Below are positions 3,217 to 6,415 of a DNA stretch of 6,415 nucleotides, in pieces (position 1 is the first letter of the stretch; each line of letters opens with the position of its first letter). This stretch comes from Desulfuromonas sp. SDB (GTDB lineage Bacteria > SDB-A), in contig LKUE01000224.1 in the NCBI GenBank assembly GCA_001412365.1, forward strand, positions 1 through 6,415, written 5' to 3'. Position numbers and translations under genes: made by a program. The notes under the pieces were generated by a model that saw only the letters and a list, made by a program, of their open reading frames with translations, was not told the origin of the DNA and did not search any database.

Positions 3217-3513
3217 CTAATTCTGAATATGGATCTTCACTTCTTTCTCCAAACGGTTTTTCAACTTATCCTTCTCCATTTCCAAATCATATCGTGCCTG
3301 AAGATTGATCCAAAAACGTTCTGACATTCCAAAATACCTTGATAATCTCAAAGCGGTATTAGCTGTAATTGCTCTATTTCCATGCACAATCTCATTGATC
3401 CGCCGTGGGTGGACATTTATATCCTTAGCTAGTTTGTACTGACTTATCCCCATAGGCTTGAGAAATTCTTCCATCAGTATTTCTCCTGGATGTATTGGTG
3501 TAAGCTTATTCAT
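3217..3513 (-). CDS. higA: HigA-type antitoxin (XRE/Cro-type helix-turn-helix, VapI subfamily)
   Basis: A 98-residue DNA-binding antitoxin. The start PIHPGEIL (residues 6-13) is the signature opening of the HigA/VapI family. It is followed by the helix-turn-helix at about 24-60: ISQYKLAKDINVHPRRINEI, then GNRAIT and ALRLSRYFG. Next comes FWINLQARYDLE at 67-78, also family-typical, and a charged C-terminal helix. It should bind the upstream HigB toxin, block its RNase activity and, as protein or complex, repress the shared promoter. It lies 8 nt after higB in the toxin-first order usual for higBA. Its ribosome site (AAGGGG) overlaps the higB stop codon, so translation is probably coupled. Length is normal for the family. 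Confidence 0.95.
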   Translation of the reverse strand: MNKLTPIHPGEILMEEFLKPMGISQYKLAKDINVHPRRINEIVHGNRAITANTALRLSRYFGMSERFWINLQARYDLEMEKDKLKNRLEKEVKIHIQN

Positions 3514-3517
3514 TATT

Positions 3518-3523
3518 CCCCTT
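3518..3523 (-). promoter_or_regulatory. Ribosome binding site of higA
   Basis: On the - strand AAGGGG ends 4 nt before the higA ATG and overlaps the TAA stop of higB. It contrasts with the toxin gene, which shows no ribosome site. The antitoxin may therefore be translated more efficiently than the toxin from the same message. Confidence 0.65.
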
Positions 3524-3803
3524 AATGATAATCAACTATCTCAACTTCATAGGCATCTTGTTTTCGCCATTTGAAGCAGATCCGCCATTGACTGTTAATT
3601 CTTATGCTGTATTGCCTTCTTCTATCTCCTGATAAATTCTCAAGATGATTAGAAGGTGGGATTTTCAAATCCTGTAAAATCTCTGCAGCATCAAGTATTT
3701 CAAGTTTCCTTCGACCTATCCGCTGGATACTCTGTGGTAATTTCCGTGAAAATTGCCGATTAAATAATCTACTAGTTTCTTTACAGGCAAAACTTTTTAT
3801 CAT
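3522..3803 (-). CDS. higB: HigB-type toxin (RelE/ParE superfamily ribosome-dependent mRNA interferase)
   Basis: A 93-residue toxin starting MIKSF and ending IVDYH, both hallmarks of HigB. The core GDRRRQYSIRIN-QWRICF (59-77) matches the RelE-fold beta strands. H53 and the C-terminal D91-Y92-H93 line up with the residues known to form the Proteus vulgaris HigB active site (H54, D90, Y91, H92), so the toxin looks catalytically intact. HigB toxins cut mRNA in the ribosome A site. It is the first gene of a two-gene operon with higA. The start is supported by the family N-terminus, yet no Shine-Dalgarno site precedes it. A strong promoter ends about 9 bases upstream of the ATG, suggesting a leaderless or ultra-short-leader message. 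Confidence 0.95.
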   Translation of the reverse strand: MIKSFACKETSRLFNRQFSRKLPQSIQRIGRRKLEILDAAEILQDLKIPPSNHLENLSGDRRRQYSIRINSQWRICFKWRKQDAYEVEIVDYH

Positions 3804-3812
3804 TCAATCAAT

Positions 3813-3835
3813 ATAATAGCGTGATACGCTATTAT
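3813..3835. promoter_or_regulatory. Palindromic operator of higBA
   Basis: ATAATAGCGT / ACGCTATTAT: two perfect 10-bp arms around a 3-base centre (GAT, 3823-3825). The palindrome covers the whole -10 box and the spacer up to the -35 box of the higBA promoter, so a bound dimer would block RNA polymerase. The likely ligand is HigA or the HigBA complex, since this family autoregulates through such palindromes. Confidence 0.85.
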
Positions 3836-3841
3836 TGTCAA
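3813..3841 (-). promoter_or_regulatory. Sigma70-type promoter of higBA
   Basis: On the - strand a perfect -35 box TTGACA (3836-3841), a 17-base spacer and a -10 box TATTAT (3813-3818, 5 of 6 consensus). The predicted transcription start falls at about 3804-3809, only 0-6 nt before the higB ATG at 3803. Confidence 0.85.
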
Positions 3842-3957
3842 GTGTTAATAATATCTAAACAACCTGATCAAATATTAATATGTAGTATAATTTCTTCTAT
3901 TAAAAAATTAGTAAACAAAATTTATCCATTAATACTATAACCGAAAAATTTTTCTAT

Positions 3958-4755
3958 TTATCTCTGGTAATTTTCAATCAATTCCAGGATAACTGTATGG
4001 GCATTTTCAATTAATTTAATTTCAGATTCATCAAATAAAAATGGCTGAAGAATTTTAGCCTGTCTGGACAGTTGTTCTGATGGTATTTTTGATATGCTTT
4101 CAAGTATAAATTCCAAAGGTTCATTTTTTATATCTAGAATACTTAAAACATCCTTATCTGGTATAAACTTATTTACCAGACAGAAGATTAAATCGTAAAT
4201 ATCCCTACCACGATTTTTTTTTCTAATTGCATCAATTTTATCAGAAAATAAAACTGATTTATCGGCACACAAGCAGGGAAAGATTTCACCAAAGCCCGAA
4301 ATAATGTGAGATTTACATTCAGCTCGTTCATAATATTTACTTGCTTCTATCTTTATCATAATACCTGATTTTTTTGAATATTCAGAAACTACTCCGTATT
4401 TATTTTCAATTTCCTTAAAAATTAATTTTCCTACAAAATTATTATCCCAGTGAGTATAATTGACCTCTGTATTAAAGCCATATCTTTTTAATTCAATTGC
4501 CGTTTTCTCCATTAAATTTTCAAATCTGTCTCTATTCATTTGATGGTAGTAAAAATCCAAATCCTCAGAAAACCTTTTATTTTGAAAAACCAGTCTTAGA
4601 AAAGTACCTCCAGTAAAATACAATTCATTATGATGATTATTATTGAGTATTTTCAATGTCAGTATCTGTAAATACTCCCGTAGAATTGTCCTAATTTTGT
4701 TGAGGGGTAATTCTCTAAGTTTAGCCTGCTGAACTAAATTTTCATAATTGAGCAT
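3958..4755 (-). CDS. abiEii: AbiEii/AbiGii-family nucleotidyltransferase toxin
   Basis: A 265-residue member of the DUF1814/AbiEii family, the toxin of type IV TA / abortive phage infection systems. The DNA polymerase beta-like nucleotidyltransferase motif is clear: GGTFLRL at 49-55 followed by RFSEDLDF at 61-68, with metal-binding D65 and D67. The second motif MIKIE is at 133-137. The later family motif SDKIDAI..K..GRDIYDL (171-189) supplies K173 and the RDxYDL block. Characterised relatives transfer nucleotides, in some cases to tRNA acceptor ends, and stop growth. The first codons overlap the end of abiEi by 22 nt in another frame, so translation is probably coupled; only a weak GCGGA precedes the ATG. 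All motif residues are present and the length is usual, so the gene appears intact. Confidence 0.93.
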   Translation of the reverse strand: MLNYENLVQQAKLRELPLNKIRTILREYLQILTLKILNNNHHNELYFTGGTFLRLVFQNKRFSEDLDFYYHQMNRDRFENLMEKTAIELKRYGFNTEVNYTHWDNNFVGKLIFKEIENKYGVVSEYSKKSGIMIKIEASKYYERAECKSHIISGFGEIFPCLCADKSVLFSDKIDAIRKKNRGRDIYDLIFCLVNKFIPDKDVLSILDIKNEPLEFILESISKIPSEQLSRQAKILQPFLFDESEIKLIENAHTVILELIENYQR

Positions 4756-5345
4756 ATTTCATTCCGCTTATGGTAAAGAGTTGAATACTTAATAATTTTT
4801 TTCATGTTCATTTTTTCTAAAACTGACAAGTCTATTCGGGTATCTTCAAATGTTAATAATTTCTCCCTGATTATTCTGAAATAAATATAATCAACCAGAG
4901 CTTTTTCCGGTTCAGCCATAAATATTTCAAATTGATTAATTTTCTCAATATTATAACCACTGAATTTTTCAGGAGTTACAGTTTGATAGATGAATAAACC
5001 ATGGTGATTTTTAAATCTCCTGGTTGGTTTTGTAGTCAGAGATGTCACCGACATGGATACTTCCGGAATAATGCTGAAATTTGACAAGGCAGTTTCCAAG
5101 GAAATATAGGAAGGACGATATAGCTTATTTGCAATGAATAGATCTGGAATATGATAATCATCAGGATAAGTTAATTCATATAAATTTCTTTTCAAGGATT
5201 TAATCAATCCTTTTTTCTTCCACAAATAGAGTGATTTTTTTATACTGTATTTACTCTCAAGAGGAAATAAAATTTCCAAGTCTCTTACTGAAAATACGTA
5301 ATATTTATTATTTAAAAGCTTTTTTATAAAATCATTATATTTCAT
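4734..5345 (-). CDS. abiEi: AbiEi-family antitoxin / transcriptional regulator
   Basis: A 203-residue partner of the AbiEii toxin. Residues about 1-60 form a winged-helix DNA-binding domain: FSVRDLEILFP, then KKSLYLWKKKGLIKSLKRNLYEL in two blocks. The rest carries the AbiEi family pattern: IANKLYRPSYISLETAL at 71-87, a VTS.TTKPTRRF strand at 100-111, and AEPEKALVDYIYF at 144-156. Known AbiEi proteins bind inverted repeats in their own promoter and counteract the toxin without a stable protein complex (type IV). Its ATG is preceded by AAAAAGG with about 8 bases between, a reasonable ribosome site. It is first in the operon, antitoxin before toxin, with a 22-nt overlap into abiEii. Confidence 0.9.
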   Translation of the reverse strand: MKYNDFIKKLLNNKYYVFSVRDLEILFPLESKYSIKKSLYLWKKKGLIKSLKRNLYELTYPDDYHIPDLFIANKLYRPSYISLETALSNFSIIPEVSMSVTSLTTKPTRRFKNHHGLFIYQTVTPEKFSGYNIEKINQFEIFMAEPEKALVDYIYFRIIREKLLTFEDTRIDLSVLEKMNMKKIIKYSTLYHKRNEICSIMKI

Positions 5346-5373
5346 TTAGTATACCTTTTTATCTACTAACTGA

Positions 5374-5402
5374 AATATAACCTATTTAATAATTAAAATC
5401 TA
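5374..5402 (-). promoter_or_regulatory. Possible promoter of abiEi-abiEii
   Basis: On the - strand TATATT (5374-5379) is a good -10 candidate, 17 bases from a poor -35, TAGATT (5397-5402). The predicted leader of roughly 20 nt would include the ribosome site of abiEi. It is much weaker than the three other TA promoters in the window, and AT richness makes chance matches easy. Confidence 0.35.
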
Positions 5403-5419
5403 GTTTAATGAAAATTAAA
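5385..5419. repeat. Two tandem TTTAAT/ATTAAA inverted repeats upstream of abiEi
   Basis: TTTAAT-A-ATTAAA at 5385-5397 and TTTAAT-GAAA-ATTAAA at 5404-5419 use the same 6-bp arms with different centres (1 and 4 bases). The first lies in the spacer of the possible abiE promoter. AbiEi proteins are known to bind inverted repeats ahead of their own gene, so these are candidate operators, but the DNA is very AT-rich and chance is not excluded. Confidence 0.4.
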
Positions 5420-5450
5420 TTTTTTTCAAATTAACATAAATTTTCAAGTT

Positions 5451-5705
5451 CTATGCGTGATAATGAGTCCTTGTTTTATGTATGTAGATTACTTTACTTT
5501 TTTCATCAATACTGTAAACTATTCGATCTCTATAATTTAATCTAATTGAATAAAAACCTTTTAAATCTCCTACCAATTTTTTCCCTGAATATGGTTCTAT
5601 TGATATTTGATTCTTGATGATTTCTTTTAATTTCTTAATAATTTTAGGAGATTGTTTTTCAATATCTTTTATAGCTTCTTTGGTAAATAAGATTCGGTAA
5701 GGCAT
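5451..5705 (-). CDS. yoeB: Txe/YoeB-like toxin (RelE/ParE superfamily)
   Basis: An 84-residue toxin, the same length as E. coli YoeB. The family core is at 43-64: KLVGDLKGFYSIRL followed by RDRIVYSI. The C-terminus THYHA resembles the RYHY end of YoeB. Aligned by eye, the catalytic Arg65 and His83 of YoeB correspond to R61 and H81, and Tyr84 to Y82. The position of general-base Glu46 is K42 here, so the chemistry may differ. YoeB toxins cleave mRNA on the ribosome. The ATG shares its A with the stop of the upstream antitoxin gene (TAATG) and has no ribosome site of its own, pointing to coupled translation. A generic RelE/ParE toxin is the alternative call. Confidence 0.85.
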   Translation of the reverse strand: MPYRILFTKEAIKDIEKQSPKIIKKLKEIIKNQISIEPYSGKKLVGDLKGFYSIRLNYRDRIVYSIDEKSKVIYIHKTRTHYHA

Positions 5706-5965
5706 TATTGATCTTTATTAAATACTTCTTCAAAAGGATATACTTCACCCTCCTCAATATTTCTTACCGATCGGCTTATGCTTTCTCTAAATCCCGGGAT
5801 TGATAAAAGATTTAATGTTTCCTGAAGACTTTCATATTCCTCTTCTGATAAAAGTACGACATCACCTTGCTTATGCCGTATATGAAAGATTTTATGTTTA
5901 TTTACAGCATCCTTGATTATTTCAAATAATTTACTTCGTGCTTTTGTAGCGGTTAAATTTATCAA
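5705..5965 (-). CDS. yefM: Phd/YefM-family antitoxin, TTG start
   Basis: An 86-residue antitoxin. The N-terminal DNA-binding half has the Phd/YefM pattern: INLTATKARSKLFEII at 2-17, then FHIRHKQGDVVLLSEEEYESLQETLNLL at about 27-54 with the typical VLLS-EEYES-ETL sequence, and SIPGFRESI at 55-63. The acidic tail EEGEVYPFEEVF should wrap the toxin. The start codon is TTG: the only upstream in-frame codons lead to a TAA after 8 codons with no ATG or GTG, the family N-terminus begins here, and GGGAGG sits 5 bases before it. It is the first gene of the operon with the YoeB-like toxin (1-nt overlap). It is expected to repress its promoter through the TGTACA boxes upstream. Confidence 0.92.
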   Translation of the reverse strand: MINLTATKARSKLFEIIKDAVNKHKIFHIRHKQGDVVLLSEEEYESLQETLNLLSIPGFRESISRSVRNIEEGEVYPFEEVFNKDQ

Positions 5966-5970
5966 TATTT

Positions 5971-5976
5971 CCTCCC
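5971..5976 (-). promoter_or_regulatory. Strong ribosome binding site deciding the TTG start of the YefM-like gene
   Basis: On the - strand GGGAGG is followed by 5 bases (AAATA) and then TTG. This near-perfect anti-16S match fixes the unusual start codon and may compensate for its weakness. Confidence 0.85.
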
Positions 5977-5980
5977 AGGG

Positions 5981-5998
5981 CGTACATATTTATGTACA
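5981..5998. promoter_or_regulatory. YefM-type operator (paired TGTACA boxes)
   Basis: A perfect TGTACA at 5993-5998 and a one-mismatch copy CGTACA at 5981-5986 have centres 12 bp apart. Together they form the perfect inverted repeat GTACATA-TT-TATGTAC (5982-5997). The pair touches the -10 box and covers the predicted transcription start of the antitoxin gene. Paired TGTACA-core palindromes are the known binding site of E. coli YefM and YefM-YoeB. Confidence 0.85.
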
Positions 5999-6026
5999 TT
6001 ATCTAAAAATTTTAATATTTTGTCAA
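5998..6026 (-). promoter_or_regulatory. Sigma70-type promoter of the yefM-yoeB-like operon
   Basis: On the - strand a perfect -35 TTGACA (6021-6026), a 17-base spacer and -10 GATAAT (5998-6003, 5 of 6). The predicted start is near 5991, inside the operator, leaving a leader of about 25 nt with the GGGAGG ribosome site. Confidence 0.87.
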
Positions 6027-6050
6027 GATATTTTAATAACTAAAATTCAG

Positions 6051-6079
6051 TTGACAAATACGTATAAAATATTTATATT
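6051..6079 (+). promoter_or_regulatory. Sigma70-type promoter of the DUF6364/PIN module
   Basis: A perfect -35 TTGACA (6051-6056), a 17-base spacer and -10 TATATT (6074-6079, 5 of 6). The predicted start is near 6086, about 13 nt before the ATG at 6099. It is back to back with the yefM promoter; the two -35 boxes are 24 bp apart. Confidence 0.87.
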
Positions 6080-6087
6080 AATACGTA
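6059..6087. promoter_or_regulatory. Inverted repeat around the -10 box, candidate operator of the DUF6364/PIN module
   Basis: TACGTAT (6059-6065) and ATACGTA (6081-6087) are perfect 7-bp arms separated by 15 bases. Each contains the self-palindrome TACGTA, and AATACGTA also reads as a direct repeat at 6057-6064 and 6080-6087. The arms bracket the -10 box, as expected for a VapB/VapBC repressor site. Confidence 0.65.
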
Positions 6088-6092
6088 AAGGA
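6087..6092 (+). promoter_or_regulatory. Ribosome binding site of the DUF6364 gene
   Basis: AAAGGA ends 6 bases before the ATG at 6099. It overlaps the right arm of the inverted repeat by one base and lies at the extreme 5' end of the predicted message. Confidence 0.6.
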
Positions 6093-6098
6093 TAAAGT

Positions 6099-6341
6099 AT
6101 GGATACTAAATTAACATTGAAATTAGATAAGCAAATTATTGAAAGTGCAAAAAAATATGCTAAAAATAAAAACATCAGTTTATCTAAAATGATTGAATTT
6201 TATCTCAAATCACTTGTCGGATCAGGTTCAGAAAATATAGAAATCACTCCATTTGTTGACAGTATCTCTGGGGTTATAAAACTTTCAGGTGATGAATATA
6301 AAGAAGGTTATTTTAAATACCTAAATGAAAAATATAAATAA
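6099..6341 (+). CDS. DUF6364-family small protein, VapB-like antitoxin
   Basis: An 80-residue protein. The N-terminal TKLTLKLDKQIIESAKKYAKN block (3-23), then ISLSKMIEFYLKSL (26-39), has the beta strand-helix-helix pattern of ribbon-helix-helix DNA-binding antitoxins and matches the DUF6364 family. The C-terminal half (ITPFVDSISGVIKL at 49-62, then YKEGYFKYLNEKY) is the part expected to contact the toxin; the short motif around SGV is common in such antitoxins. It overlaps the next gene, a PIN-domain toxin, by 17 nt, which is the usual vapBC-type antitoxin-first layout. It has its own strong promoter, ribosome site and candidate operator. The start is the first ATG after AAAGGA. Confidence 0.85.
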   Translation: MDTKLTLKLDKQIIESAKKYAKNKNISLSKMIEFYLKSLVGSGSENIEITPFVDSISGVIKLSGDEYKEGYFKYLNEKYK

Positions 6342-6415
6342 AAAATTGTTAATTGATACCAATATAATCATTGATTTATTGGCAAAAAGAAAAAAATTTT
6401 ATCAATCTGCTGCAA
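6325..6415 (+). CDS. PIN-domain (VapC-like) toxin, N-terminal fragment cut by window edge
   Basis: Only 30 codons are visible. After MKNINKK comes LLIDTNIIIDLLAKR (8-22), the classic first strand and helix of PIN-domain nucleases. D11 is the first of the conserved metal-binding acids. The start ATG lies inside the end of the DUF6364 gene (17-nt overlap, different frame), so the two are probably translationally coupled; no good ribosome site is at the right distance. PIN toxins are Mg-dependent RNases, often of tRNA or rRNA. The remaining roughly 100 or so residues lie beyond the window, so integrity cannot be judged. Confidence 0.85.
   Translation, partial: MKNINKKLLIDTNIIIDLLAKRKKFYQSAA

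Follow-up and report, generated by a model that had tools for sequence, protein, structure and literature searches.

A toxin-first higBA operon with a predicted near-leaderless toxin message and a ribosome site for the antitoxin, and the occurrence of this layout among HigB relatives

The stretch of DNA analysed here (the window, 6,415 nt in full) carries on its minus strand a two-gene operon, higB–higA, which lies downstream of an abiEi–abiEii gene pair (Table 1). The first gene encodes a RelE-like toxin. Its best match among solved structures is GraT (6f8s, E=2.7e-25), and HigB structures were matched as well. The C-terminus of the protein, VEIVDYH, aligns with GraT and with HigB 4mct, and the conserved DYH of the HigB/GraT active-site region is present. 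The gene of the HTH antitoxin HigA follows directly 3' of higB at a distance of 8 nt, the order being toxin first. Judged from these protein matches, the pair is a HigBA type II toxin–antitoxin (TA) module, and its family function would be that of a ribosome-dependent mRNase that is neutralised by the antitoxin. GraT of P. putida is the closest solved toxin; higBA2 of V. cholerae and HigB of P. vulgaris are more distant.

The start codon of higB (ATG, 3803–3801) is fixed because the in-frame codon directly 5' of it is TGA and because MI[KR]SF-type N-termini are found at the same position in HigB relatives. A wrongly annotated higB start is ruled out on the same grounds. Further TA or defence genes lie nearby: positions 3217–6415 of the window contain four such pairs in 3.2 kb, namely higBA, abiEi/abiEii, a yefM/yoeB-like pair and a DUF6364 (RelB/ParD-like) gene that is followed by the start of a PIN-domain gene. 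The latter is cut by the contig end, and its PIN_3 match is weak (E=0.005).

Table 1. Positions of the genes and of the regulatory features at the higBA locus of the window.
Feature	Position	Strand	Description	Evidence
Gap from abiEii to -35 box	3842..3957	-	116 nt, AT-rich	
-35 box, TTGACA	3836..3841	-	part of the higBA promoter	sequence, promoter scan
Perfect palindrome, ATAATAGCGT-ATC-ACGCTATTAT	3813..3835	.	23 nt, 10-nt arms, 3-nt centre; putative HigA operator	
-10 box, TATTAT	3813..3818	-	17-nt spacer from -35 box; 9 nt to higB ATG	
Predicted transcription start region	3803..3808	-	G3805, 2-nt leader; A3808, 5-nt leader; A3803, no leader	predicted from -10 spacing
higB	3522..3803	-	RelE-like HigB toxin, 93 aa, MIKSF...VDYH	PF05015 E=1e-21, residues 3-93
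SD of higA, AAGGGG	3518..3523	-	overlaps higB stop codon TAA (3524-3522)	
higA	3217..3513	-	HTH antitoxin, 98 aa	TIGR02607 E=1.9e-33; HTH_3; HigA/GraA structures

The higB promoter matches the consensus at 11 of 12 positions and is the top promoter-like site in the 2.7 kb scanned. When the 100 nt 5' of higB were dinucleotide-shuffled 3000 times, 0.5% of the shuffles reached the score of this promoter, and none of them did so at 4–10 nt from the gene. The 9 nt between the -10 box and the higB ATG read ATTGATTGA. The usual distance from the -10 box to +1 is 6–7 nt, which places the predicted +1 near 3807–3805. The higB message is thus predicted to be short-leader or leaderless, with a leader of 0–5 nt. 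Here a leader of 2–5 nt appears likelier than a true 5'-terminal AUG, because the 9-nt spacing is longer than the spacing at which the family peaks (see below). We found no terminator-like site on the minus strand in the interval from abiEii to the -35 box; read-through from abiE could thus occur.

The whole promoter spacer and the -10 box are occupied by a 23-nt palindrome, which is absent from the earlier note on this DNA. Of the shuffled sequences described above, 0.1% have palindrome arms of at least 10 nt. The palindrome is placed as is the footprinted operator of V. cholerae HigA2, which begins after the -35 box and reaches over the -10 box (PMC11006873). Promoter palindromes are also what the antitoxin HTH dimers of GraTA from P. 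putida and of HigBA from P. aeruginosa and V. cholerae bind (PMC6393540, PMC6987408, PMC11006873). We consider it probable that the palindrome is the HigA operator, through which HigA would repress its own operon.

The two genes differ in their ribosome sites. The anti-SD pairing energy is +0.6 kcal/mol at higB, which corresponds to no Shine–Dalgarno (SD) site, versus -8.3 kcal/mol at higA. In this, higB of the window also differs from graT, for which the GraTA authors mention a native SD (PMC6393540). The sequence TAAGGGG at 3518–3524 has a counterpart in many relatives, where a similar TAAGGAGG-like arrangement stands after the DYH codons; thus, the codons after the conserved C-terminus of the toxin and the antitoxin SD share sequence. 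The earlier note had placed TATTAT 9 nt before the higB ATG, had seen AAGGGG at higA and no SD at higB, and had fixed the higB start by its MIKSF N-terminus; we found all of these as described. Its reading of the higB message as leaderless agrees with a start predicted 0–5 nt from the AUG, but short-leader or leaderless is the more exact wording.

The host itself is an ordinary SD user. In a survey of 178 genes in 286 kb of genome stretches, an SD (energy ≤ -4.5) preceded 49% of the genes when the leftmost ATG was taken as the start and 65% when the best candidate was taken, compared with 12% at random positions. Of 26 strong promoters, only 3 lay 4–10 nt from a leftmost ATG. Host-wide leaderless initiation is thus unsupported as a trivial cause of the higB layout. 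In a search for the anti-SD tail of 16S rRNA, the host gave a single 16S match, which ends near a contig end, and three relatives gave none. The antitoxin-first genes of the window, DUF6364 (6099, plus strand) and yefM (5965, minus strand), both have a strong promoter; their -10 boxes lie 19 nt and 32 nt away, and their SD energies are -5.4 and -10.2, respectively.

We compared the higBA locus with 80 HigB relatives from many phyla, which were collected by one similarity scan of GTDB contigs with the HigB protein of the window. A sigma-70 weight matrix served to score promoters at these 80 loci, in the window and at two further loci, L002 and L003. In a non-redundant set of 57 HigB loci outside the Bacteroidota (upstream regions <70% identical), the -10 box of the best promoter lies 4–10 nt before the toxin start at 46 loci, compared to 6.2±2.3 loci (maximum 14) in 200 shuffles. 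The spacing is narrowly distributed: among the 47 HigB loci with a spacing of ≤10 nt, 37 have 5–7 nt, with a peak at 6 nt, and a single one has less than 5 nt. At this peak, +1 falls on the AUG of the start codon. The difference in ribosome sites is also found across the relatives, with an SD (energy ≤ -4.5) at 7 of 56 higB genes versus 46 of 56 higA genes (Wilcoxon p=5e-9). The second higBA copy of this genome (L002; G000:C22, 1–501) encodes a HigB that is 53% identical and has the promoter TTGACA-17-TAGGAT, whose -10 box lies 5 nt from a GTG start; in the family relative L003, the spacing is likewise 5 nt. Both copies of the genome and L003 share the layout, and two of these three genes start with GTG. 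Leaderless initiation at codons other than AUG is poor in E. coli. The GTG starts at a few of the conserved HigB loci, L002 among them, count against a leaderless reading.

As far as the scanned promoters tell, the near-leaderless higB layout is frequent but not universal. The higBA loci of Bacteroidota have another promoter type (TAnnTTTG), a palindrome 3' of the box and a leader of about 20 nt. Among the individual loci, most of which are from Bacteroidota (L039, L050-L057, L060, L065, L066, L068, L070-L073, L076 and L080), the TAnnTTTG-type box is followed by a GCGTTAnTAACGC-like palindrome before the ATG. As this palindrome sits between the box and the ATG, the operator would be at the transcript start and not in the promoter spacer. 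Leaders, some of them with an SD, are further found in cyanobacteria, Lactobacillus, Acinetobacter plasmid loci and part of the alphaproteobacteria. In a separate, broader alphaproteobacterial HigB set, 4 of 9 strong promoters lie at 4–10 nt, and with promoters of any score 12 of 22 do, with spacings from 4 to 10 nt. Within this class, subgroups L246-L249, L267 and L269 have a leader and, for the most part, an SD-like stretch, and several have the N-terminus MI[VA][GS]FRD. The mode of initiation has apparently switched within the family in such alphaproteobacterial subgroups. Lastly, 3 of 10 annotated plasmid records have a promoter at 6 nt (Rhodococcus, Treponema, Alcaligenes), and the rest have leaders or no clear promoter.

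Our main reading, to which we give a probability of about 0.7, is that higBA is an autoregulated toxin-first module in which a leaderless or near-leaderless, poorly translated toxin and an SD-driven antitoxin offset the unfavourable gene order. HigA would bind the palindrome that covers the promoter core and would thereby repress the operon. Upon derepression, RNA polymerase would start 0–5 nt before the higB AUG, and the toxin cistron, with no room for an SD, would be initiated weakly at its 5'-proximal AUG. On the same mRNA, higA would be translated efficiently from its own SD. The antitoxin would thus stay above the toxin in spite of the toxin-first order, and an internal higA promoter would be unneeded. 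Such internal promoters are present in mqsRA and rnlAB, reverse TA operons in which an antitoxin promoter inside the toxin gene shifts the balance towards the antitoxin. We rejected an internal promoter of this kind for higB: the best score within the gene is 8.5, and in the family the median equals that of codon-shuffled genes, with none above chance.

A different division of labour is known from E. coli hicAB, where the P2 transcript (Turnbull & Gerdes 2017, as described in PMC7167474, PMC5535158 and PMC6957337) supports, according to a review, the synthesis of HicB only (PMC7167474). Deter et al. distinguish an E. coli class of TA systems (Class 2) in which toxin translation is weakened by a promoter near the toxin ribosome site; HicAB is the sole example of this class (PMC5535158). 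In H. influenzae, a toxTA transcript begins within the toxin gene (PMC6957337). Applied to the window, the short transcript would yield the antitoxin only, and the toxin would come from a longer transcript that originates from abiE read-through or from an upstream promoter. In the secondary accounts of hicAB, the similarities to higBA are that the toxin gene is first and that the transcript of the autoregulated promoter lacks a good toxin ribosome site, which favours the antitoxin; hicAB differs in having a second, upstream promoter whose mRNA includes the hicA site, and in its protein families. At higB the promoter is likewise too near for a toxin ribosome site, and the 116-nt gap in which we found no terminator-like site would admit a longer transcript. 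However, such a transcript gains no SD, as there is none upstream of higB, and in it the palindrome would form a hairpin of 10 pairs that ends 9 nt before the ATG. The promoter-like sites further upstream are weak (9/12 matches). Furthermore, a hicAB-like split predicts that starts inside the toxin gene (spacing <5 nt) and starts at the AUG occur equally often, whereas the observed spacings concentrate at 5–7 nt. The conserved HigB spacing puts the AUG at +1, whereas P2 is described as removing the toxin from translation. As starts inside the gene are nearly absent, the toxin seems to be meant for poor translation and not for none. We thus consider a hicAB-like split rather unlikely.

The layout may also be a by-product of compactness, in which the operator overlaps the promoter in a small mobile cassette, the gene follows directly and leaderless initiation serves no separate function. 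In line with this, the palindrome coincides with the spacer and the -10 box, with the start codon immediately next, and in Bacteroidota the start codon is also close after the palindrome despite the other promoter type and the longer leader. Yet antitoxin-first modules are as small and mobile and retain SD leaders, and the spacings cluster narrowly where the AUG is +1 and are not spread over 0–10 nt. This makes compactness by itself quite unlikely as the explanation.

In M. tuberculosis, most TA pairs belong to VapBC and MazEF, which are antitoxin first. Among the TA pairs with a primary start, 32 of 37 are leaderless, and leaderless messages increase upon starvation (PMC3898074). The transcriptome of M. 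tuberculosis includes a large leaderless part in general (PMC3898074), whereas the host of the window uses SD sites. The earlier note had proposed that a changed ribosome state under stress leads to more leaderless translation of higB and raises the toxin:antitoxin ratio. The starvation response of M. tuberculosis is in favour of this proposal; within the literature that we found, however, a general rise of this kind is shown in that species alone. The specialised ribosomes that MazF was thought to produce are contested, as two later studies found neither leaderless transcripts nor such ribosomes (reviewed in PMC7167474), and neither the window nor the relatives contain a pointer to a stress switch. 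We thus regard the switch as very unlikely. The bias towards the antitoxin, which the note had also proposed, is, like the near-leaderless toxin and the SD-bearing antitoxin, well supported by the conserved spacing, the SD pattern and the transcription-start and reporter data on C. crescentus described below.

In C. crescentus, the primary start of higBA was mapped genome-wide at 3281528 and the start codon of higB is at 3281524 (PMC13384398); by our own subtraction, this corresponds to a leader of 4 nt. The same study describes a higB translational fusion that was almost undetectable while the transcriptional fusion was active, and its authors invoke an unknown post-transcriptional regulator (PMC13384398). 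The design of these fusions was not aimed at leader length. A near-leaderless start would explain the silent fusion without a further factor, which is our reading and not that of the authors. When LexA was absent, higB translational activity was reported to be high (PMC13384398), suggesting that the short-leader message can be translated when it is abundant. As predicted for the window, higBA of C. crescentus has a start just before higB, and HigA binds upstream of the gene; unlike in the window, the operon is described as being also repressed by LexA, as including higX and as having overlapping higB and higA genes (PMC13384398). PF05015 is present in our Caulobacter control genome. A main start further upstream, by abiE read-through or from another promoter, which would give the toxin message a leader and leave the proximal promoter minor or silent, is compatible with the abiEii–higB interval in which no terminator-like site was found but highly improbable in view of the proximal promoter (11/12 matches, 17-nt spacing, overlapping palindrome), its presence across phyla with unrelated upstream sequence, and the C. 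crescentus start mapped 4 nt upstream of higB (PMC13384398).

Other TA families were scanned in the genomes that carry the higBA loci, where promoters above the 95th percentile of shuffles were counted as strong. Strong promoters at 4–10 nt were found in the toxin families Gp49 (9/13), BrnT (7/13) and HicA (4/8), which are mostly toxin first and were classed here by family, not operon by operon. In the antitoxin-first families, the counts were 0/14 for PhdYefM and 1/19 for RelB. Pooling all toxin-family sets gives 59/83 versus 1/33 for the antitoxin-first families (p=3.6e-12), and 24/43 remain without the first HigB set (p=4e-7); these p-values indicate strength and are not exact, because transferred related cassettes are not fully independent. 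Start codons were set by a promoter-blind rule (mostly the ATG nearest to the domain start), by which single assignments may be wrong.

In reverse-order TA operons, where the toxin gene is first, the question arises of how an excess of antitoxin is produced. Known answers have been given case by case, by internal promoters (mqsRA, rnlAB) or by the truncated P2 message of hicAB. Our comparison suggests that the layout in toxin-first pairs is a widespread way of making less toxin than antitoxin, and it points to a simple answer, in which the mode of initiation is set by the spacing between promoter and AUG. Whether a leaderless toxin cistron (AUG at +1) with an SD-bearing antitoxin is generally the rule in reverse-order type II TA operons (HigBA, Gp49-type, BrnTA and part of HicAB) across phyla, SD-using hosts included, such that gene order and initiation mode co-evolved, seems to us evenly balanced. 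If true, such a rule would in addition explain why the Caulobacter higB translational fusion is nearly silent. A statement that toxin-first operons are generally leaderless was not found in the open-licence papers searched. The cross-phylum pattern can readily be tested on existing maps of transcription start sites. As a single locus, higBA of the window is an ordinary HigBA module; it is more interesting as a case of a cross-phylum pattern that is tied to gene order.

Outside the TA and defence-type genes, the plus strand of the window encodes a 990-aa protein (9–2981) with an N-terminal response-regulator receiver domain and an ATP-binding domain of the PEP-synthase/PPDK type (PPDK_N). The remaining dikinase is absent among its Pfam matches, and the fusion of these two domains is unusual.
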